Of a stretch of DNA of 64,000 nucleotides, positions 7,540 through 64,000 are shown piece by piece. The notes below the pieces were generated by a model. The model searched no databases. It had not been told where the DNA came from and saw only the letters and a program-made list of their open reading frames with translations. The position numbers and the translations under genes were made by a program. Every line of letters starts with the position of its first letter. The stretch's first letter is position 1. The stretch is from Methylobacter luteus IMV-B-3098 (GTDB lineage Bacteria; Pseudomonadota; Gammaproteobacteria; Methylococcales; Methylomonadaceae): positions 311,376 through 375,375 of the forward strand of contig NZ_KE386569.1 in the NCBI RefSeq assembly GCF_000427625.1, read 5' to 3'.

Positions 7540-7907
7540 AGCTCATGGCGTTTGGCCACCTGCACCGAAGCGCCAAGCAGACTCTGAACAGCTTCGGCGA
7601 AGGGTTGGCCACTATAGCCGCCATCGACCAGCAGCGAAGTGACCTCAGTTAAGTCTTTCCAGTTCTGTTCAATGGTTTTTAGCGCCCCTTGGCGATCACT
7701 GACGTCCGCCGTGGTGATGGCAATTGCATGGGGTAACCCTTGCGTGTCGACAAAAATATGTCGCTTGATACCTGAAACCTTTTTGCCGGCATCATAACCT
7801 TTGCTGCGTGCGCAGTCGGTGTTTTTGACACTCTGTGCATCAACGATGCAGAAACTCGTCCTGGCGTTGCGCCCCTGTCTGGTACGGGCCTCGCCAACCT
7901 GATTTTT
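7380..7907 (-). CDS. IS5-family transposase, OrfB (DDE catalytic part)
   Basis: Open without interruption for 176 codons. It reads 'VGEARTRQGRNARTSFCIV' at its beginning, then 'VDAQSVKNTDCARSKGYDAG' (first Asp), 'SLLVDGGYSGQPFAEAV' (second Asp) and 'PQRWVVERSFAWLEKCRRL' (catalytic Glu), ending 'LALLLRRY'. This is the RNase H-like DDE domain of the IS427-type transposases. It has no convincing start of its own and should be made by frameshifting from OrfA. Relative to OrfA it is in the +1 frame (equivalently -2), entered just after a run of seven A on the coding strand (7903-7909). The -1 frame there does not lead into the transposase, so expression may be impaired. Confidence 0.85.
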   Translation of the reverse strand, partial: KNQVGEARTRQGRNARTSFCIVDAQSVKNTDCARSKGYDAGKKVSGIKRHIFVDTQGLPHAIAITTADVSDRQGALKTIEQNWKDLTEVTSLLVDGGYSGQPFAEAVQSLLGASVQVAKRHELHTFAVIPQRWVVERSFAWLEKCRRLWKNTERLLNTSLQFVNLAFLALLLRRY

Positions 7908-8187
7908 TTAATGCCTGCTCCAGCAGGCTGGTTCCACCTTCAGGTTTCTCGCTCCATAACGAAAAATAATGATGGACCGTGCGCCATTTCGGAAAGTCGC
8001 TCGGCAGCATGCGCCACTGGCAGCCGCTCTTCAGCAAGTACAGAATGGCACAGAACACTTCATACAAGTCCACTGTACGAGGTCGGGTTTTCTTGCGAGC
8101 ATTTTCTAGCAGAGCTCTGATCGGTTCAAATTGTTCGCGACTGATGTCGCTGGGGTACACTTTTCTCATGCCCTCATTATCTATCAT
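7840..8187 (-). CDS. IS5-family transposase, OrfA (N-terminal DUF4096-type)
   Basis: A 115-residue N-terminal transposase segment with 'MRKVYPSDISREQFEPIRAL', 'VDLYEVFCAILYLLKSGCQW' and 'MLPSDFPKWRTVHHYF', the helix-turn-helix-like region of IS427/IS1031 transposases. The frame begins at the ATG at 8187; the usual family start MRKVYPSD corresponds to the ATG at 8169, which has GAGGGC directly upstream. The native part ends near 'ALKKSGW' where the OrfB frame takes over; the residues beyond it are out-of-frame read-through of OrfB. Confidence 0.8.
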   Translation of the reverse strand: MIDNEGMRKVYPSDISREQFEPIRALLENARKKTRPRTVDLYEVFCAILYLLKSGCQWRMLPSDFPKWRTVHHYFSLWSEKPEGGTSLLEQALKKSGWRGPYQTGAQRQDEFLHR

Positions 8188-8214
8188 ACTCAGCAGATAT
8201 TGAACAGGCTCTTA

Positions 8215-8595
8215 GGGTTTGCGAAATTGCTGTCGGGTAATGTGATTCCTTATGCCTTTTGGATACGTTTTAATCAGAAAAAGTTAAATGAAATCAAGCC
8301 GGTCGTTATTCATACTGAAGAAGACGATCATATGATTAAAATTTATTTGATTGGCGCGTGCATAGATAAGACAATCTATGCCCTACGGCCGGTTTTTAAA
8401 GAGTGTGTTTCAAAAAAGAAAAATATACTGATTGATTTGCAGGCTGTGCCGGTAATTGATGGGGCTTTTTTAGGACTTTGTCTGTTGCTTTACAAGCATT
8501 TGAATTGGAATGGATGCCAGTTAAATTTCCAAAATATTAATCGGCAAAATATCAGGATTTTTAAGTGGAACTCGGCCCAGTTTCTAATTCCATAA
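8215..8595 (+). pseudogene. Detached C-terminal part of the WecB/TagA-STAS gene
   Basis: A frame of 127 codons including the stop, continuing the host gene on the far side of the IS. Joined at TTA it reads 'RYFFDGLGFAKLLSGNVIPY' in frame with the upstream glycosyltransferase. The residues after that, 'IKIYLIGACIDKTIYALRP', 'KKKNILIDLQAVPVIDGAFL' and 'GLCLLLYKHLNWNGCQLNF', look like a STAS (anti-sigma-antagonist type) fold. The position normally carrying a phosphorylatable Ser in such domains reads 'VIDGAFLG', without Ser. An ATG-initiated frame from 8131 that begins inside the IS would include this part, but its first 28 residues are IS-derived. Nothing shows that this remnant is translated on its own. 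Confidence 0.7.
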
Positions 8596-54475: not shown

Positions 54476-55258
54476 TTAAGAAGCTACATATCCAGTAATA
54501 TTATAGCCGGCGTCTACATAAGTAATTTCACCGGTGATGCCGGAAGCCAGGTCCGAGCACAGGAATGCCGCGGCGTTACCAACTTCCTCGATCGTGACGT
54601 TTTTCTTCAAAGGCGAAGCATCGGCCGCTTTGCTGAGCATGGTTTTGAAATCGTTGATACCCGATGCGGCCAGTGTTCTGATCGGACCTGCGGAAATCGC
54701 ATTCACACGTGTGCCTTCGGTGCCCAGGGCGACGGCCATGTAGCGGACGTTTGCTTCCAGACTGGCTTTGGCTACGCCCATGACGTTGTAGTTGGGCATG
54801 ACGCGTTCCGCACCTAAATAGCTCAAGGTTAACAGAGAACCGTTACGGCCCGCCATCATTGCTCGGCCAGCCTTTGCTAAGGCGGTAAAACTGTACGAAC
54901 TGATGTCATGAGCGATTCTGAAGTTTTCTCTGGTTGTGGCATTGACGAAATCGCCTTCCAGCGCATCACGCGGCGCGAAAGCGACTGAATGCACGATACA
55001 ATCCAGTCCGTCCCAGTGTTCGCCAAGCTTTTTGAAAACGTTCTCTATATGCTCATCACTACTGACATCGCATTCAATAATAATGTTGGAATCACATTCA
55101 GCCGCCATGGTTTCGACCCGGCTCTGAAGTTTGTCATTTTGAAAAGTAAAGGCCAACTCTGCGCCTTCACGGTGCATGGCCTGGGCAATGCCCCATGCAA
55201 TTGAACGGTTACTGGCTAAACCAACAATCAAGACACGCTTGCCTTGCATAAAACCCAT
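54476..55258 (-). CDS. fabI: Enoyl-ACP reductase (NADH) FabI
   Basis: 260 residues from the ATG at 55258 (MGFMQGKR), chosen because GGGGAG lies six bases upstream; the ATG at 55264 would have no spacing. It is the last reductase of each fatty-acid elongation cycle. The short-chain dehydrogenase fold has '[20 protein letters not shown]' (NADH loop), '[20 protein letters not shown]' and the catalytic Tyr-x6-Lys in '[18 protein letters not shown]'. The FabI-specific triclosan-site Tyr region '[10 protein letters not shown]' is present. Confidence 0.95.
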
Positions 55259-55487
55259 TATCATCTCCCCATGTTTTTGTTGCTACAATAGAGCTTCAAT
55301 TATCTATGTTTGTTCAATCCGCACCAACCTGTAACCGGTCGATGATAACATTCGCCATAATAGCAGACGGCGGATCTACCCCATCGTGACGAAGGGGGAT
55401 CAGAAAGGATAGCCCTGCTGACGCAGGACTGTCAAATTTTAACCATATCCTTAAAAAAGGGATTTTTTCAGGCTGTAAGGTATTTTG

Positions 55488-57653
55488 ATGTTCAGTCTTT
55501 TTTCTATGAAGATGCATATCGACCAATCTCGCACGCTAGTGCTGATATTGCTGACAGTATTGTTGAGCGCCTGCGTCGGCTCGGAGCTCAATAATCCCTA
55601 TGCGCAAGAAGAGGGTGGTCAGTCGGTTTTATATGAGTCCTTTTCAGAACGCCCCAAGCATCTGGACCCGGCTGTGGCTTACAGCTCTAATGAATATGCG
55701 TTTATTGCCCAGATTTATGAACCGCCGTATCAATATCATTACCTGAAAAGACCTTATGAACTAACGCCGTTAACGGCAACCGGCATGCCTGAAATCGAGT
55801 ATCTGAATTCCAAAGGCGAAAAACTGGCTTCAACCGCAAATGACAGCGACATTGCCTATACCGATTATTTGCTCGAAATCCAACCCGGTATCCGCTATCA
55901 GCCGCATCCGATTCTGGCAAAAGATGCACAAGGTGAATATATTTACCATCATTTGACCGGCGAGCAGATCGACAGGCTCGGCTCCTTGCAGGATTTGCCC
56001 GAGACCGGTTCGCGCGAACTGACCGCCGAGGATTATGTATACCAGATCAAGCGACTGGCGCATCCGAAAATTCAATCACCCATCGCTGAACTGATGAAAA
56101 ACTATATCATCGGCTTCGACGATTTTTCAAAGCAGGTCGCGAACAAGCAGAAATTTGAGATAAAAGACATTTCCATGACGGGCGTTACCGCGCTGAGTCC
56201 GTACAAATACCGCATACGCATCAAAGGCAAATATCCTCAGTTCATTTTCTGGCTGGCCATGCCGTTTTTCTCGCCTATGCCGTGGGAAGCCGATGTGTTT
56301 TACGAACAGCCCGGCCTGAACGATAAAAATATCACGCTAGACTGGTTTCCGATAGGCACAGGGCCTTATCTTCTGGCCGAGAACAATCCGAACCGGCGCA
56401 TGATCCTGCAGAGAAACCCGTTGTTTCATCCTGAAACGTATCCTTCCGAAGGCGAGCCCGGCGATAAGGAAAAAGGTTTGCTGGCCGATGCCGGCAAACA
56501 GTTGCCATTCATTGATAAGGTCGTGTACATGCTGGAGAAGGAAACGATTCCTTACTGGAACAAATTCCTGCAAGGCTATTACGATGCGTCCGGTATTGCC
56601 TCCGACAATTTCGACCAGGCCATACAGTTTACCGGCAGCGGCGCCGCCACTTTGACCGAGGCCATGAAAGAAAAAGGCATCCAGCTGGAAACAGCGGTAA
56701 CGACATCTATTTTCTATCTAGGCTTTAATATGCTCGATGCCACGGTCGGCGGCGATAGTGAAAAAGCGCGCAAGTTGCGTCAGGCTATTGCCATAGCCGT
56801 CGATTATGAGGAATACATCGCTATTTTTGCGAACGGGCGCGGCGTCGCCGCCCAGGGCCTGATACCGCCCGGCATATACGGCCATGCGGAAGGCAAGGAC
56901 GGCATCAATCCTTATGTCTATGACTGGGTAAACGGCAAAGCGCAGCGTAAAAACATAGAGGTTGCCAAGCGGCTAATGGCCGAAGCCGGCTATCAGGGCG
57001 GTGTCGATCCTAAAACCAGACAAGCCCTGATCCTGTATTTTGATACGACTTCGGTCAGCATTGACGATCGTCCAAGAATGAACTGGTATCGCAAACAATT
57101 TGAAAAGCTGGGCATCAAACTGGTCATTCGCGGCACCGATTACAATCGTTTCCAGCAGAAAATGCGCGACGGCAATGCGCAGATTTTTTTCTGGGGCTGG
57201 AATGCAGATTACCCCGATCCTGAAAATTTCTTTTTCCTGCTCTATGGGCCCAATGCGAAAGTCGCCCACGGCGGGGAGAATGCGGGCAATTACCAAAATC
57301 CCGAATTCGATCGTTTATTCGAACAAATGCGCAATATGGGCAATGGCGAGCAACGCTACCGTATCATTCAGAACCTGCAGGAGCTGGTGCGCCGCGATGC
57401 GCCATGGGTATTCGGTTTCCACCCCAAGAGTTTTTCGCTATATCATGGCTGGTATAAAAACCTGAAGCCTAATTTAATGGCCAATAACCAGCTTAAATAT
57501 ACACGCATCGATACGGCGGAAAGAGCCGAAAAGAGAGCAGAGTGGAACAAGCCTGTGTACTGGCCTTTGCTGATAGCTTTTGTCGTGTTTGTGTTACTGT
57601 TGATTCCAGCGATTCTGGCTTATCGCCGCCGCATTAGGGAAACAATTCAATGA
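55488..57653 (+). CDS. Peptide ABC transporter substrate-binding lipoprotein with C-terminal helix
   Basis: About 721 residues from the ATG at 55488 (AAGG eight bases upstream). The N-terminus has a lipoprotein signal ('LVLILLTVLLSAC'); the body is a DppA/OppA-type SBP domain (extracytoplasmic family 5) with 'FSERPKHLDPAVAYSSNEY', 'LRQAIAIAVDYEEYIAIFAN' and 'FFWGWNADYPDPENFFFLLY'. It is larger than E. coli YejA (about 600). A C-terminal transmembrane helix ('YWPLLIAFVVFVLLLIPAIL') with a basic tail is unusual in a lipoprotein SBP. It is the first gene of a four-gene importer and overlaps the permease gene by 4 bp. Confidence 0.9.
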   Translation: MFSLFSMKMHIDQSRTLVLILLTVLLSACVGSELNNPYAQEEGGQSVLYESFSERPKHLDPAVAYSSNEYAFIAQIYEPPYQYHYLKRPYELTPLTATGMPEIEYLNSKGEKLASTANDSDIAYTDYLLEIQPGIRYQPHPILAKDAQGEYIYHHLTGEQIDRLGSLQDLPETGSRELTAEDYVYQIKRLAHPKIQSPIAELMKNYIIGFDDFSKQVANKQKFEIKDISMTGVTALSPYKYRIRIKGKYPQFIFWLAMPFFSPMPWEADVFYEQPGLNDKNITLDWFPIGTGPYLLAENNPNRRMILQRNPLFHPETYPSEGEPGDKEKGLLADAGKQLPFIDKVVYMLEKETIPYWNKFLQGYYDASGIASDNFDQAIQFTGSGAATLTEAMKEKGIQLETAVTTSIFYLGFNMLDATVGGDSEKARKLRQAIAIAVDYEEYIAIFANGRGVAAQGLIPPGIYGHAEGKDGINPYVYDWVNGKAQRKNIEVAKRLMAEAGYQGGVDPKTRQALILYFDTTSVSIDDRPRMNWYRKQFEKLGIKLVIRGTDYNRFQQKMRDGNAQIFFWGWNADYPDPENFFFLLYGPNAKVAHGGENAGNYQNPEFDRLFEQMRNMGNGEQRYRIIQNLQELVRRDAPWVFGFHPKSFSLYHGWYKNLKPNLMANNQLKYTRIDTAERAEKRAEWNKPVYWPLLIAFVVFVLLLIPAILAYRRRIRETIQ

Positions 57654-58627
57654 CTCAATATATTATCCGCCGAATTTTATACGCCTTCCCGTTGCTGATG
57701 GGCGTCAATATCCTGACGTTTGTGCTGTTTTTTGTCGTCAACAGTCCTGATGATATGGCTCGCATGCAGTTGGGGCAGAAACATGTGACCGAAAAGGCCG
57801 TGGAAAACTGGAAGCAGCAGCGCGGCTATGACCTGCCGTTGCTATGGAACGGCAAGGCCGAAGGCGAAGAAAAACTGACCCGAACGATCTTTTATCAAAA
57901 ATCGGTCGGCCTGTTCCTGTTTCGCTTCGGCGTATCCGATAGCGGCAGAAACATCTCGGCCGATATTCAGCAACGCATGTGGCCCAGTCTGGCCGTCGCT
58001 TTGCCGACGCTGATTGTGGGTTTATTGGTCAATATCAGCTTCGCTTTGATGATGGTGCTGTTTCGCAACAGTTATCTGGAACATGCCGGGGTCGTGCTGT
58101 GCGTGATCCTGATGTCGGTTTCCTCACTGTTCTATATTATCGGCGGCCAGTTTTTGATCGGTAAATTACTGAGGCTGGTGCCTATCTCCGGTTATGACGG
58201 CGGTTTGTCGGCGCTGAAGTTTCTGATCCTGCCGGTATTGATCGGCGTTTTTTCCGGCATCGGTTCCGGCGTGCGCTGGTACAGAACCCTGTTTCTGGAA
58301 GAAGTCGAAAAAGATTACGTACGCACGGCGCGCGCAAAAGGCCTGACCGAAACCCGGACCCTGTTCCGGCATGTGCTGAAAAACGCCATGATTCCGATTT
58401 TGACCGGTGTCGTGGTCGTGTTGCCGTTACTGTTCATGGGCAGTTTGATCATGGAATCGTTTTTCAGTATTCCGGGCCTGGGCAGCTACACGATAGATGC
58501 GATTAACAGTCAGGATTTCGCCATCGTGCGGGCCATGGTGTTTCTGGGTTCGGTCCTGTATGTAATCGGCCTGCTGCTGACCGATATTTCCTACACTCTC
58601 GTCGACCCTCGGGTAAGGTTGTCCTGA
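57650..58627 (+). CDS. ABC transporter permease (YejB/DppB-like)
   Basis: A 325-residue inner-membrane permease. Five to six helices, starting 'YIIRRILYAFPLLMGVNILT', and the EAA-type coupling loop 'VRTARAKGLTETRTLFRHVL' (facing the ATPase) identify a peptide-type permease; 'MESFFSIPGLGSYTIDAI' is characteristic. It overlaps the SBP gene and the next permease gene, consistent with coupling. The large periplasmic loop after helix 1 is as in YejB. Confidence 0.92.
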   Translation: MTQYIIRRILYAFPLLMGVNILTFVLFFVVNSPDDMARMQLGQKHVTEKAVENWKQQRGYDLPLLWNGKAEGEEKLTRTIFYQKSVGLFLFRFGVSDSGRNISADIQQRMWPSLAVALPTLIVGLLVNISFALMMVLFRNSYLEHAGVVLCVILMSVSSLFYIIGGQFLIGKLLRLVPISGYDGGLSALKFLILPVLIGVFSGIGSGVRWYRTLFLEEVEKDYVRTARAKGLTETRTLFRHVLKNAMIPILTGVVVVLPLLFMGSLIMESFFSIPGLGSYTIDAINSQDFAIVRAMVFLGSVLYVIGLLLTDISYTLVDPRVRLS

Positions 58628-59973
58628 TGATCATATTATGGACCGATGCGCTGATATTCCTGCTGATCGCCGTGATACTCATGCTCGGCTTTTATCTGCG
58701 CGGCAAGGAATACATTAAACGTCCCCTGCAACAGATAGCCCGCAGCAAAGTCGGCATGGTTTCTCTGACCGTGCTGATTTTCTTTGTGCTGATCGGCCTG
58801 CTGGACTCGATACATTTTAAGCCGTCGGAGGACGGTCGCAGTAATGAAATTATCAGTGCGCTGGATTATTGGGCCACGCCGCTGCGCGAACATGGCGAGA
58901 AAACTTACTCGGCGCCTTTCGCCTCCTATCTGTACAGCAAGGAAATGATGATGCTGGCGGACGGCACCGAGCAATGGGGCTATCCGCGCCTGCAATTTGG
59001 CGGCGCGCATCTGGCCGATCCCGAAACCGAACAGGTGCCGGATATATTAAAGAAAGCGCTTTACGGCTGGATTCAGGGCGCAAGTCTGGTCGTATTTTTC
59101 ATGATTCTGTTAGGGAGTCTTTTAAGAGAGCCGCATAAGCGCCTCATCGTGAGTCCGACGGCCAAGGCGGTCTGGACTGTGGTGTTTTTGATCGTTTCGA
59201 TCAATTACATGCTGGTCTATCTGTCTACTTACTATCATGTCTTCGGCACCGATAAAGTCGGCGAGGACGTGTTTTATCAGGCTATAAAAAGCATACGCAC
59301 GGGCCTCGTGATAGGCACGTTGACGACCCTGGTCATGCTGCCTATGGCTCTCCTGTTCGGCATCCTGGCCGGCTTTTTTCGCGGCTGGGTCGATGATGTC
59401 ATTCAATATGTTTACACGACGCTGAATTCGATTCCCAGCGTACTGTTGATAGCCGCGTCCATCCTGATGGTGCAGGTGTATATGGCCGCTCACGAGGAAG
59501 CCTTTACCAGCGTGATCGTGCGGGCGGACATGCGGCTGCTGTTTCTTTGCCTGATCCTGGGCGTGACCAGCTGGACCGGATTATGCCGGTTGCTGCGGGC
59601 CGAAACGCTGAAGCTGCGCGAGATGGAATACGTGCAGGCGGCGCAGGCGCTGGGCGTCCGGCGCCGCGTGATTCTGCTGCGCCATATCCTGCCCAATGTC
59701 ATGCACATCGTACTGATCTCCGTCGTGCTGGATTTCAGTTCGCTGGTACTGGCCGAGGCGGTGCTGTCTTATATCAATATCGGTGTCGACCCGACGACCT
59801 ACAGCTGGGGCAACATGATTAACGGCGCGCGGCTGGAAATGGCGCGCGAGCCCGTGGTCTGGTGGTCTTTGGCGGCATCTTTCGTATTTATGTTCGCGCT
59901 GGTGCTGGCCGCAAACCTGTTTGCCGATACGGTGCGCGATGCGTTTGATCCAAGACGAGGTGCCTATGAATAA
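58627..59973 (+). CDS. ABC transporter permease (YejE/DppC-like)
   Basis: A 448-residue second permease, longer than usual YejE (about 340). The N-terminal half holds two or three helices and a long loop ('DGTEQWGYPRLQFGGAH'); the C-terminal half is the transporter core with the coupling loop 'YVQAAQALGVRRRVILLRHI' and 'AVLSYINIGVDPTTYSWGNM'. Overlap with its neighbours (1 bp before, 8 bp after) shows an operon. The long N-terminal half is a family extension. Confidence 0.9.
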   Translation: MIILWTDALIFLLIAVILMLGFYLRGKEYIKRPLQQIARSKVGMVSLTVLIFFVLIGLLDSIHFKPSEDGRSNEIISALDYWATPLREHGEKTYSAPFASYLYSKEMMMLADGTEQWGYPRLQFGGAHLADPETEQVPDILKKALYGWIQGASLVVFFMILLGSLLREPHKRLIVSPTAKAVWTVVFLIVSINYMLVYLSTYYHVFGTDKVGEDVFYQAIKSIRTGLVIGTLTTLVMLPMALLFGILAGFFRGWVDDVIQYVYTTLNSIPSVLLIAASILMVQVYMAAHEEAFTSVIVRADMRLLFLCLILGVTSWTGLCRLLRAETLKLREMEYVQAAQALGVRRRVILLRHILPNVMHIVLISVVLDFSSLVLAEAVLSYINIGVDPTTYSWGNMINGARLEMAREPVVWWSLAASFVFMFALVLAANLFADTVRDAFDPRRGAYE

Positions 59974-61609
59974 GCCGATACTGTCCGTAGCGCATCTCAG
60001 CGTCAGCTTCAACCACGGCCCCAAGGTCGTCGATGATATCGGTTTTGACATCTATCCGGGCGAGACGTTTGCGCTGGTCGGCGAATCGGGTTCCGGCAAG
60101 TCGATCACGGCCTTGTCCGTGCTGAGGCTGCTGCCCGGTAATGCCCGCATTCAGGCCAGTGAAATCAGCCTGCAGGGTGATAATCTGCTGCGCCGGTCCG
60201 AATACGAGCTTTGCCGGATTCGCGGCCGGCGCATCGGCCTGATATTTCAGGACCCCATGTCGTCGCTGAATCCGGTCATGACTATCGGCGACCAGATTGA
60301 GGAGGTCATCGAGCTGCATTTTGCCTTGCCGCAACAGGCACTCAAGCAGCGCGTGCTGGAATTGCTGCGGCAGGTGGAGATACCGCAGCCGGAGCAGCGC
60401 ATTAATGATTATCCGCATCAACTGTCCGGCGGCCAGCGCCAGCGCGTCATGATCGCGATTGCGCTGGCCGGCGAGCCCGATCTGCTGATTGCCGATGAGC
60501 CGACCACGTCGCTGGATGTGACCATTCAGGCGCAAATTCTGAACTTGCTGAAAACCATACAAGGGCAGACCGGCATGGCGCTGTGGCTGATCAGCCATGA
60601 TCTGGCGCTGGTGTCCAATATGGCCGATCGCGTGGCGGTCATGCAGCAGGGCAAAATCGTCGAAACCGGACGCTGCGATGAATTTTTCCGCCATCCCAAA
60701 CACCCGTATACGCAAAAGCTGCTGAGTGCCTTGCCCTCCATGCAGAGCTGTTTAAAGCACGGCAGGCAGGAAAAGCCGCCGCTATTGCAGGTGGACGATT
60801 TCAAAGTCCATCACCCGATCAGGAAGGGCATTTTTAAACGCGTGGTCGATCATGTACGCGCCGTCGACGGCGTCAGTTTTACTATCCAGCAGGGCAAGAC
60901 GCTGGCGCTAGTCGGCGAATCCGGCTGCGGCAAGACCACGCTGGGCAAAGGACTGCTGAACCTGATACCGGGCAGTGCAGGCCAAGTCAAAATAGACGGC
61001 GTGGCGCTCGATACACTACAGGACGAGGCGTTACGGCTAAAACGCGCGGACATGCAGATCGTGTTTCAGGACCCTTTTTCCTCGATGAACCCGAGAATGC
61101 TGGTCGGCGAAATTGTCGCCGAAGGCATCCGGGCCCTACATCCCGGCGTCAGCGCGGTCAACAGGCAAGAAAGAGTCAGGCAATTGCTCAGGCAGGTCGG
61201 CCTGCCTGAAGATGCCGCGCAACGGTATCCGCATGAATTCTCGGGCGGCCAGCGTCAGCGCATCTGCATCGCCAGGGCACTGGCGGTCGATCCGAAGCTG
61301 ATCATCTGCGATGAACCGACCAGCGCGCTGGATGTATCGGTGCAGGCGCAGATTATCGAGCTGTTGAAATCGCTGCAGCAGGAAAAGGGCGTCAGTTATC
61401 TGTTTATCACGCATGACCTGGCCGTCGTGGCCGAAATAGCCGATGAAGTCGCGGTCATGTATAAAGGTAAAATCGTCGAGTACGGCAGTGTCGCGCAGGT
61501 GCTGACCCAACCGCAGCAGGCTTACACGAAAAAGCTGCTAGGCGCGGTACCGGTGTTGAGGACAGAGACTAAACCTTCTGAGCAACAGGATAAGCAAGCC
61601 GTTTTGTAG
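59966..61609 (+). CDS. Peptide ABC transporter, duplicated ATP-binding protein (YejF-like)
   Basis: About 547 residues from the ATG at 59966 (MNKPILSV), which has GAGG upstream. Two full ABC domains in tandem: first with Walker A '[19 protein letters not shown]', signature '[17 protein letters not shown]' and Walker B '[12 protein letters not shown]'; second with '[14 protein letters not shown]', '[15 protein letters not shown]' and '[12 protein letters not shown]'. Both keep the catalytic Glu after the Walker B Asp. Two domains on one chain match YejF, which powers import of peptides such as microcin C in E. coli; the substrate here is unknown. Confidence 0.92.
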
Positions 61610-61938
61610 CATCGCCGTTTGATAGCGAAGCTCCTTGTTGAGACTGTCGGATAGCGCAACTGAGGGGCTTCAAGCGCAAGTAGTTCTGCGAATACAGCAA
61701 AAAAGCATTTCACCACGAAGATCATGAACGGCCGCATGAACAGATATTACAGGAGCAGCGTAGCGGTGTGCCGAGGACGAGAAGGAAATCATTAACTGTA
61801 AAAAGTCTGGATTTGATCTGACCTATGAAATCGAATTCAGACTTATATCGATATTATTTAAAGATTAAAAAAATGAATAGCTGCTAAGAGACGATCAAGA
61901 ATTTCAACCAAATGACGGCTGCAATACAGAAAGCTGTC
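61610..61938. other. Intergenic region left of the cassette array
   Basis: About 330 bp. The segment 61752-61792 (GGAGCAGCGTAGCGG, TGCCGAGGACGAGAAGGAAA) resembles 23240-23290. No gene is recognisable. The short frames are not supported. It is the likely flank of the integron array. Confidence 0.4.
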
Positions 61939-62026
61939 ATTCAACGTTGGAAGTAACCGGCACCGGAGCGCAGCGGCGGGAACCAAAAAGCGTAGCTTTT
62001 TGGCGTCCGTGACTGACTTGTTAGGT
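61939..62026 (-). repeat. attC-like site 1 (end of array)
   Basis: Read on the minus strand: R'' core ACCTAAC (62026-62020), inner arms AAGT..CACGGACGCC and GGTGCC..ACTT, and R' core GTTGAAT (61945-61939); 88 bp. CCAAAAAGC-TAC-GCTTTTTGG forms a hairpin in the loop. R'' overlaps the stop codon of the adjacent gene (62021-62023), as usual for integron cassettes. Confidence 0.7.
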
Positions 62027-62668
62027 GTTTTTGGATGTATTAACGTATTCATTTGCCAATTGATAGAAGGAGTTGCCTTCGTAGTTGAAACCACCTGAAT
62101 CACCTGCTGCTATTCTGGCACTAGCAATTTCCTTGGCTTCATTTGGTTTGGATTCAAGCAGACAGGTGAGAAGTTTCTCGATCCATATGGTTCGAACTGC
62201 ATTTGGGTATTTTTTCATTAGCTGCGAATAGTAATTTTCTAGAGCTCCAAGATTGCTTTGATAGGAGGTAATACTAGACGCCACGTCAAGACTTATCGGG
62301 TCAAGCAATTCAAATACGCTGCAAATTTCTTTTGATATGAATTCTTCTTCCCACTTATCGAGCGTAGTGTTTCCACTTTGGACTTCCATACTCGGCGCTA
62401 CCCAGGCACCGCAAGCCCTAAAACTAAGCGGTTGTTTTTTGTTCTCTGGAAGCTTAACAACATCCCAAAAAACATCGTCAAAGTCATAATGCTTGAAGTG
62501 CATAGACCAAGATAGCCTTTTTATCTTCGGATGACCCGTAATCAAAATCGTGAAAAATGCATCCTTCTCTTTTTTGAAAACAAAGCCGCGACTACATTTC
62601 CAACCAAAACGATTTGATTCTTCTTTTAATAATATATTTAGAATCTTGTCAGACTCGGATTGGCTCAT
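62021..62668 (-). CDS. Cassette gene, unrecognised 215-aa protein
   Basis: 215 residues, no signal peptide or membrane helix. The N-terminus has 'LLKEESNRFGWKCSRGFVFK' and 'FTILITGHPKIKRLSWSMHF', a DUF4304-like style of beta-strand pattern, but I cannot assign the family with confidence. The C-terminal half is helical ('LGALENYYSQLMKKYPNAVR', 'IASARIAAGDSGGFNYEG'). The start codon lies 6 bp after the R' core of the next attC, with no ribosome site, as in many cassettes. Its stop lies inside attC site 1. G+C (about 40%) is lower than in the ABC operon beside it. Confidence 0.7.
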   Translation of the reverse strand: MSQSESDKILNILLKEESNRFGWKCSRGFVFKKEKDAFFTILITGHPKIKRLSWSMHFKHYDFDDVFWDVVKLPENKKQPLSFRACGAWVAPSMEVQSGNTTLDKWEEEFISKEICSVFELLDPISLDVASSITSYQSNLGALENYYSQLMKKYPNAVRTIWIEKLLTCLLESKPNEAKEIASARIAAGDSGGFNYEGNSFYQLANEYVNTSKNT

Positions 62669-62674
62669 TAAAAC

Positions 62675-62734
62675 ACCTAACGTGGGGCTAAAGGGCGCGC
62701 TGTAGGCGCATCCCGCTTGAGCGTAAGGTTAGAG
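62675..62734 (-). repeat. attC-like site 2
   Basis: 60 bp on the minus strand: R'' CTCTAAC (62734-62728), GCTCAAGCGGG pairing with CCCTTTAGC across a bulge, GCGC/GCGC at the loop, and R' GTTAGGT (62681-62675). R'' overlaps the stop codon of the 62729 gene. Length and the extrahelical bases fit classic attC sites. Confidence 0.8.
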
Positions 62735-63241
62735 TACATATACACCAGCCTTTTCCGCTTCGGCCTTCAGAGCACCAATTGAAGCTTGATTTTTTAAGTA
62801 CACATGATGTGTAAAGTCCCAGCCTTCTATATATATGAGTTTCAAAGACGGGATAACGAACATGAAACAGTGAGAACCGCTTGCCAAATAAGGTAAAGGG
62901 CTTAATGCCATATTTTTTGCAGACGGAGATGTAAACGCCCTGAAGGTTATATGCTGCTTATACCTGCCAACCCGTTTAACAAGGTATGACTCAAAATTTG
63001 ATGTAAGGCTGCAAACAAATAAGTGCAACTTAGCATCGTTTATTTTCTGTTTTTCGATTGGAACATCGTTTAACTCTTTATACGCCTCTTCTTCAGATAG
63101 CCAATGATCGTAAACAGTTATAGCTACTTGTTGGTAGTTGCCCGTGCTTTCATTAGAGGTGATAGCTGCTAAGTCAGGAAAACAATTGATCAGGTTTGCC
63201 TGAGTTTTCCTATCTAGGCTTTGAAATCGACGATTAGCCAT
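62729..63241 (-). CDS. Cassette gene, unrecognised 170-aa protein
   Basis: 170 residues: 'DRKTQANLINCFPDLAAITS' at the N-terminus, a middle helical acidic part ('WLSEEEAYKELNDVPIEKQK'), and hydrophobic strands 'HCFMFVIPSLKLIYIEGW' near the C-terminus. No motif I recognise. It lies between attC sites 2 and 3 and so forms one cassette, 16 bp from the upstream R' core. Low G+C relative to the neighbouring ABC operon. Confidence 0.7.
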   Translation of the reverse strand: MANRRFQSLDRKTQANLINCFPDLAAITSNESTGNYQQVAITVYDHWLSEEEAYKELNDVPIEKQKINDAKLHLFVCSLTSNFESYLVKRVGRYKQHITFRAFTSPSAKNMALSPLPYLASGSHCFMFVIPSLKLIYIEGWDFTHHVYLKNQASIGALKAEAEKAGVYVL

Positions 63242-63256
63242 GGGAGATCTCTTGTG

Positions 63257-63379
63257 TTCTAACTTAAAGGTAAAGGGCGTGCCGCAGAAGGTCGTTAAGC
63301 GAAGTCAACGAAACCGATTCAAAAGCGAACCTTCAAAATCGCCGATAGGCGGCACGTCCATTTGATCGCTGTGTTAGGC
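63257..63379 (-). repeat. attC-like site 3, long form
   Basis: 123 bp on the minus strand: R'' GCCTAAC (63379-63373), GGACGTGCCGC pairing with GCGGCACGCC, a loop with further short stems, and R' GTTAGAA (63263-63257). The stem CGTGCCGC/GCGGCACG is perfect. The R' core ends in A where Y is expected, a small departure. Confidence 0.75.
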
Positions 63380-63395
63380 AAAATATGTAAATCCA

Positions 63396-63463
63396 ATAGG
63401 ATGTGCCGACGAAGGAGGCGCATCACTCGCGAATGATGCGCTTCGTGCCTCAGCGCATCCTAT
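63396..63463. repeat. Nested palindrome inside a cassette
   Basis: Outer arms ATAGGATG.GC (63396-) and GCGCATCCTAT (-63463), inner perfect stem GCGCATCA/TGATGCGC. It lies between the stop of the YCII gene and attC site 3, where a cassette would normally have few bases. I recognise the sequence as the style of a widespread 60-70 bp intergenic repeat. Confidence 0.65.
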
Positions 63464-63466
63464 GGA

Positions 63467-63754
63467 CTACATCGACCTCAACTCATAAACCCGAATGCTT
63501 GCAATAAATGGATTGCTTTGGGCAAGTTTCTCGGCAGCATCAAGACTTTCAGCCTCAATGATATTGTAACCAGTGATAGATTCCATATTCCATGGGAGGT
63601 CCCGGATTCCATTCTTCGAGATTTCTCGGCCACCACTGAACCCACTCTGGTCCAATTGCTTGGCGGAGATTGACTCAAGCCAAGTCTCCCAAGCTCTCAT
63701 GATCTCCGGAGTAGGTTTTTCAAATCCGTAATGCAGAAACATAAACTTTTTCAT
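63467..63754 (-). CDS. YCII-domain protein (cassette gene)
   Basis: 95 residues of the YCII-related (DGPF) family: 'KKFMFLHYGFEKPTPEIM' at the start, 'FSGGREISKNGIRDLPW' in the middle and 'TGYNIIEAESLDAAEKLAQS' followed by 'NPFIASIRVYEL' at the end, the classic ferredoxin-like fold ending. Family enzymes or binding proteins act on small metabolites; none is proven here. It overlaps the following TfoX-like gene by 4 bp (ATGA) and shares its cassette. Confidence 0.82.
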   Translation of the reverse strand: MKKFMFLHYGFEKPTPEIMRAWETWLESISAKQLDQSGFSGGREISKNGIRDLPWNMESITGYNIIEAESLDAAEKLAQSNPFIASIRVYELRSM

Positions 63755-64000
63755 TTATTTCTCCTTGCAGAGTGTAGTGGTTTGATTTTGAATTTTTCTG
63801 TTTTTGGTGGAAGAGCGTCAACGTAAGTCAGCGCCATTTGCAGCCAATCCGCAAGAGCATTGTCTTGGGTTATTCCATCAAGCTCAATCGAAATGAAACC
63901 AGGCATAGTATGACCGGCACCGTCGCAGCGCTTCGTCATAGGATTGGCAAGCGCTTTTGGTTCGGCATCTTTGCCAACGCGGACCATCAGGCCTTTTTTT
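63751..64000 (-). CDS. TfoX/Sxy N-terminal-domain protein, 5' end outside window
   Basis: The frame is open to the window edge, so the start is missing; the visible part is about 82 residues. 'GLMVRVGKDAEPKALANPMT', 'HTMPGFISIELDGI' and 'ADWLQMALTYVDALPPKTEK' match the C-terminal half of the TfoX N-terminal domain. Members with only this domain are small proteins of unknown role; full TfoX activates competence in Vibrio and Haemophilus. It is probably the first gene of the cassette that also holds the YCII gene. Confidence 0.75.
   Translation of the reverse strand, partial: KKGLMVRVGKDAEPKALANPMTKRCDGAGHTMPGFISIELDGITQDNALADWLQMALTYVDALPPKTEKFKIKPLHSARRNK

Follow-up and report, generated by a model that had tools for sequence, protein, structure and literature searches.

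The window analysed here is a 64,000-nucleotide stretch of Methylobacter luteus IMV-B-3098 (C1:311376-375375, in a genome of 5.03 Mb on four contigs), and at its right edge a row of small genes is interspersed with attC-like sites (Table 1). Three ORFs, coding for proteins of 215, 170 and 95 aa, all lie on the minus strand together with the three sites, whose R″ and R′ cores read exactly where a first-pass annotation of this DNA had placed them. That annotation described an integron gene-cassette array in which all genes point the same way, two attC sites overlap a stop codon and the third lies 88 bp past one. Direct reading agrees, with 87 bases between the end of attC3, which is long at 123 bp, and the stop of the 95-aa YCII-like ORF.

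The three sites cluster inside 1.5 kb. An ORF followed by an attC with R″ at the stop codon is seen in two of the three units and only loosely in the YCII-like unit, whose gene is possibly that of a third cassette; to the right of this gene no attC was found. The 215-aa and 170-aa proteins matched no family in Pfam, NCBIfam, PADLOC or PHROGs at the limits used, NCBIfam giving only a match far below threshold, and a PDB sequence search with the cassette proteins returned nothing convincing. The palindromic repeat beside attC3 has other copies in G000, G001 and G003 among the matches listed, several of them matching on both strands.

Table 1. Features of the array and its outer flank, in window positions
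Feature	Position	Strand	Remarks
Outward continuation of tail	61801..61886	−	Also dispersed; among the matches listed, copies in G000, G001, G002 and G003
Tail repeat, ~65 bp	61883..61946	−	R2 70.9 bits; starts at attC1 R′ core, runs outward
attC1, distal attC	61939..62026	−	ACCTAAC...GTTGAAT; R1 25.6 bits, E 4.9e-5
Cassette gene, 215 aa	62021..62668	−	ORF; stop codon overlaps R″ of attC1
attC2	62675..62734	−	CTCTAAC...GTTAGGT; R1 42.7 bits, E 2.2e-9
Cassette gene, 170 aa	62729..63241	−	ORF; stop codon overlaps R″ of attC2
attC3	63257..63379	−	GCCTAAC...GTTAGAA; R1 24.2 bits, E 1.1e-4
Dispersed palindromic repeat	63396..63465		Between attC3 and YCII-like gene
YCII-like gene, 95 aa	63467..63754	−	Pfam YCII 20.6 bits, under cut-off 24

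A cassette array without a neighbouring integrase

The check by covariance model that the first-pass annotation had proposed was made with a model, R1, whose 19 training attC sites come from the two arrays of this genome that carry intI and include none from the window. Run with filters off over positions 56001-64000, R1 recovered precisely the sites that had been claimed, all three on the minus strand, the next-best matches being the reverse strand of attC2 at 10.2 bits and then one of 5.3 bits. Among the training sites 85.1% of the stem cells are paired, against 73.6% in shuffles, and their covariation score was matched by none of 500 shuffles, a control that ignores relatedness among the sites. 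A search of the whole genome, with scoring limited to the best 150 among 1701 first-look candidates, gave at least 32 matches at E ≤0.001, comprising attC2, a site at C1:891181 and a remainder inside the two integron arrays; attC1 and attC3 are missing from this list because both score under the limit of that search. Plasmid-borne attC regions resemble attC1 as well: of 72,556 plasmid records, 1,788 carry one with 80-90% identity to it, and the eight matches listed lie at dfrA12, dfrA22/dfrA47 and fosI/fosX cassettes. With E values of up to 1 allowed, Rfam found nothing over positions 55000-64000. When the three sites were folded as DNA without constraints, the result was no better than for shuffles (z -0.57, -0.88 and -1.34) and was set aside as proof of attC, being uninformative. 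The three attC sites are real and represent more than chance, and with the two ORF-attC units they form a gene-cassette array, as had been claimed.

Clusters of attC sites that lack an integrase are known as CALINs. The first-pass annotation expected attI and intI to the right of base 64000, and this part of its reading fails. With both IntI proteins of the genome as queries, tblastn at E 1e-3 gave no match in the window or in C1:370000-429999, which takes the rightward extension about 54.6 kb past the window end. The cut-off of TIGR02249 was exceeded at only two places in the genome, C1:127310-128248 and C1:1865187-1866128 (494 and 470 bits). These two IntI proteins are 81% identical to each other, and each gene stands at the end of an attC array, forming the intact integrons 1 (C1:114918-128248) and 2 (C1:1846671-1866128) about 245 kb and 1.5 Mb from the window array. 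An integron in G001 (L060, G001:C1:2928000-2943000) has an IntI 92% identical to that of integron 1, and the far end of its array carries pieces of another, diverged IntI.

To the right of attC3 the YCII-like gene is followed by TfoX-N-like and GFA-like genes, tightly spaced on the same strand, and then by a divergent MarR/RrpB-type regulator on the opposite strand; to the left, the array faces a convergent ABC-transporter gene. A complete integron with intI directly to the right is ruled out by the absence of IntI matches as far as C1:429999, and no intI adjoins the array, the nearest being that of integron 1. Given these right-hand genes and the lack of IntI matches over that stretch, the array is not the tail of an integron starting next door but a CALIN, with two complete cassettes and three attC sites and no integron integrase nearby. 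Of the earlier interpretation, the attC sites, the array, the gene direction and the distal end at 61939 hold, and an adjoining attI and intI are not supported. Integrons in methanotrophs have already been published, as passages of PMC8527097 record.

Among 201 genomes of the order, the 215-aa protein occurs in one, its own, and the 170-aa protein in two, so that identical gene content in all relatives, which the first-pass annotation had named as grounds for rejecting its claim, is not the situation here. Window positions 61930-63274 are copied with 96% identity at C2:82714-84057, on a second replicon (1329/1388 identical in the longer alignment of the block), the copies of the 215-aa and 170-aa genes being 95% and 92-93% identical. 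On the inner side this homology stops on C2 inside attC3, and on the outer side it runs on beyond the R′ core of attC1 for 59 bases, ending within the repeat that we call the tail. A large transposase-like ORF (L039 11330-13081, C2) adjoins the break point of the C2 copy of attC3.

Other traces of the cassettes are more fragmentary. A partial copy of the 170-aa gene is found at C1:1845783-1846025, just past the point where the strongly modelled attC of integron 2 end, and a solo site of the attC3 type stands between genes at C1:1150227-1150349 (L040 8228-8350), the 90% identity to attC3 covering C1:1150229-1150402. This solo site adjoins part of the palindromic repeat, and BLAST comparison detected no tail beside it. 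The YCII-TfoX DNA of window positions 63467-63996 recurs with 95% identity in G003, next to a different tail. A homologue of the 170-aa protein in G029 has no attC nearby (best match 5.9 bits), and a Vibrio plasmid homologue (28.7% identity) is one of several small genes lined up on one strand and is flanked on both sides by a 104-nt repeat (82% identical), a layout that looks like a cassette array.

The tail repeat at the distal end

The motif GTTGAAT, which is the R′ core of attC1, also provides the first bases of the tail. Within the window tail there is a 10-bp hairpin (z -2.04), equalled by 11 of 200 shuffles. The first BLAST query for tails contained some attC1 bases; the tail model, R2, was made from 17 copies and detected at least 39 tails in four genomes of the genus, fetched with their flanks as 37 loci, and at least 21 outside the genus, in 14 of 77 genomes of the family. 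Both counts are minima: in each genome, scoring was confined to the top 150 first-look candidates within the genus and to the top 63 in the family, and tails that are diverged or empty may have escaped. A pattern scan of named genomes returned two tails: that of a Methylococcaceae MAG has an abutting attC (20 bits), and that of Methylomonas sp. WSC-6 has none.

R1 gave 34 matches over the 37 genus loci, and in 13 of the 39 genus tails the modelled attC stops between +7 and +9 of the first tail base, which puts the tail start at R′, where 0.0099 such cases would be expected; two further partial matches end at +1 and +3. These rows are not all independent, since L135 and L144 have a common attC, L147 and L148 are near duplicates and the window itself is among the 39. 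Genus tails with an abutting attC have additional same-strand attC upstream, and within 2 kb downstream of the genus tails the fetched sequence contains no attC on either strand. The other 26 are without an abutting R1 match. In held-out genera an attC abuts 7 of the 19 tails examined, with ends at +3 to +7 and an expectation of 0.021; five of these score 15-32 bits and two are weak, at 12.3 and 10.1, leaving 12 of the 19 without such a match. Among the unmatched tails, of the genus and of the other genera together, many are attC-like by eye. A further 11 R1 matches in the held-out genera include eight weak ones downstream (8.5-11.3 bits), and for this reason the asymmetry between upstream and downstream attC holds for the genus only.

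When attC-like pairing was tested separately, the medians were -9.0 for the 39 genus tails and -11.3 for the 19 others, against -4.9 for 117 GTTGAAY controls (p 1.2e-4 and 3.7e-5, respectively), with 7 of the 39 and 7 of the 19 lying past the 5th percentile of the controls. Tails without a modelled attC also occur, at least at L150 (G003) and L191. Neither BLAST, in the fetched arrays, nor R2, in the parts searched, found a tail in the two intact integrons. The array itself is thus an ordinary CALIN of a known kind, and the notable part is its common distal repeat: what is new here is a distal attC that ends on a dispersed repeat at which orphan cassettes of related bacteria end as well. A literature search of titles and abstract openings returned no description of such a tail repeat.

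Comparison of tail loci separates what is kept from what is exchanged. L137 (G003) and L142 (G002) align at 88% identity from the start of the tail (base 0) as far as +5066 and are unmatched upstream, L151 and L154 likewise match from tail base 0, with an interruption, and both L138/L163 and L143/L145 have the outer flank in common; among these paired loci an abutting attC is backed by R1 only in L142, L151 and L138, whereas L137, L154 and L163 were judged by eye. The window and C2, conversely, have cassettes in common and different sequence beyond +59. Homologous tail flanks with differing upstream DNA, together with the same cassettes at different tails, indicate that the core side changes while the tail and outer flank stay. 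The same comparison of flanks showed nothing conserved that could be the left half of a landing site. L147 (G002, contig C144) and L148 (G003, contig C2) are 99.6% identical over 5.7 kb, an identity that suggests recent transfer.

The C2 tail is one base from two other tails and five from the window tail, which itself differs by five from each of the C2, L137 and L138 tails. We say only that the C1 and C2 arrays may be one insertion that was copied, because the window tail is no nearer to that of C2 than to those of L137 and L138. No tail, and hence no empty one, is seen in G001, G002 or G003 at the locus of the window; G002 and G003 have ~350 bp between the ABC-transporter gene (52% identical) and the next conserved gene, compared with 5.25 kb in G000, and G001 has other genes.

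Origin of the array

We consider it probable, at about two chances in three, that this CALIN arose through insertion of cassettes mediated by IntI in trans, with the tail as a recurrent landing site. The attC sites, the lack of a nearby integrase, the shared blocks and the register between tail and attC are direct observations, and it is from these that we infer an IntI acting in trans. An IntI of this genome, or a related one, would take as its target a copy of the tail lying downstream of the ABC-transporter gene, and would link the folded attC of a cassette to the G^TT core with which that copy begins. Integron integrases also have secondary sites, termed attG, which are reportedly treated in Loot et al. 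2024. The tails would be recurrent landing sites of this attG-like, secondary type, at which cassettes would be gained or lost at the tail start while the tail and outer flank remain. In keeping with an attG-type junction, the R′ core of attC1 coincides with the tail start, placing a G^TT core against a non-cassette flank, and the tail core GTTGAAY fits GTTRRRY, the motif that passages of PMC10127599 give along with the position of IntI cleavage.

It could instead be argued that each tail locus was once a whole integron that has since lost its intI, the tail being the outer half of attI, which would in every case have stayed behind at the distal end. The tail does sit at the distal end wherever an attC is modelled, and an origin of CALINs by integron degradation is proposed in a part of PMC9024848. 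L138 (G002) also carries, at 7882-8451, the C-terminal half of a truncated IntI, 48% identical to residues 161-345 of an IntI of the window genome, on the array side of the tail and in the orientation expected of an integron. We nonetheless regard decay as unlikely, since a proximal intI remnant occurs at only this one of the 37 genus loci (with ~5 kb covered on each side at most) and not at the window, while a 43-residue IntI scrap at L158 lies on the distal side. Decay would also call for many separate integron insertions per genome, and the searched parts of both intact integron arrays are without a tail.

Two other explanations are weaker. Ordinary recombination, or a plasmid, could have carried the two-cassette block and its tail between C1 and C2, with no integrase acting here, as the 96% identity of the block and the similarity of the tails up to +59 might suggest; yet the homology ends within a repeat on one side, the C2 tail is closer to two other tails than to that of the window, and the coupling of tail and attC elsewhere is left unexplained, so that segmental transfer alone has perhaps a slightly poorer prospect than decay. 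We find it very improbable that the attC-like hairpin and the tail are halves of a single palindromic element unrelated to integrons. Their close coupling and the hairpin within the tail are what such an element would show, but the attC halves are diverse where the tail is conserved, homologous flanks retain the tail and not the upstream half, L150 and L191 have tails without a modelled attC, and attC1 both matches the attC of known cassettes and overlaps a stop codon.

Several known systems lie close to the array. It has at least two attC, cassette-type genes and no integrase nearby, as do CALINs in general, and differs from them, as far as the literature search went, in that its distal end lies on a dispersed repeat common to other orphan cassettes. 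It is like attG sites, which PMC12444791 cites in passing as secondary sites of IntI, in that a cassette is joined to a G^TT core that is neither attI nor attC (sections of PMC12444791 and PMC10127599), although the de novo insertions reported in those sections of PMC12444791 fall over numerous loci, whereas here one conserved repeat family is found at the junction. Orphan arrays at repeated genomic positions are likewise a feature of Xanthomonas CALINs, whose positions are given by neighbouring genes rather than by a common repeat in the passages of PMC12444791 that concern them. The sedentary chromosomal integrons of the same genome have the same attC type by R1, and integron 2 has the partial 170-aa gene beside it, but they possess intI and long arrays and, where searched, no tail.

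CALINs are common, and it is unsettled whether they arise by decay of integrons or by insertion elsewhere than in the integron. With a repeat at many distal CALIN ends in several genera, this question becomes testable, and it can now be asked whether natural tails take up cassettes, whether one and the same tail carries different cassettes from strain to strain and whether tails follow the type of integrase. More tentatively, the conserved repeat in chromosomes and plasmids of this methanotroph family may be a dedicated docking site for IntI away from the integron, at its terminal G^TT, so that the genome would hold two integrons together with satellite sockets whose cassettes turn over between species and replicons. 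If so, the reach of a chromosomal integron would extend to many scattered sockets, including those on plasmids.
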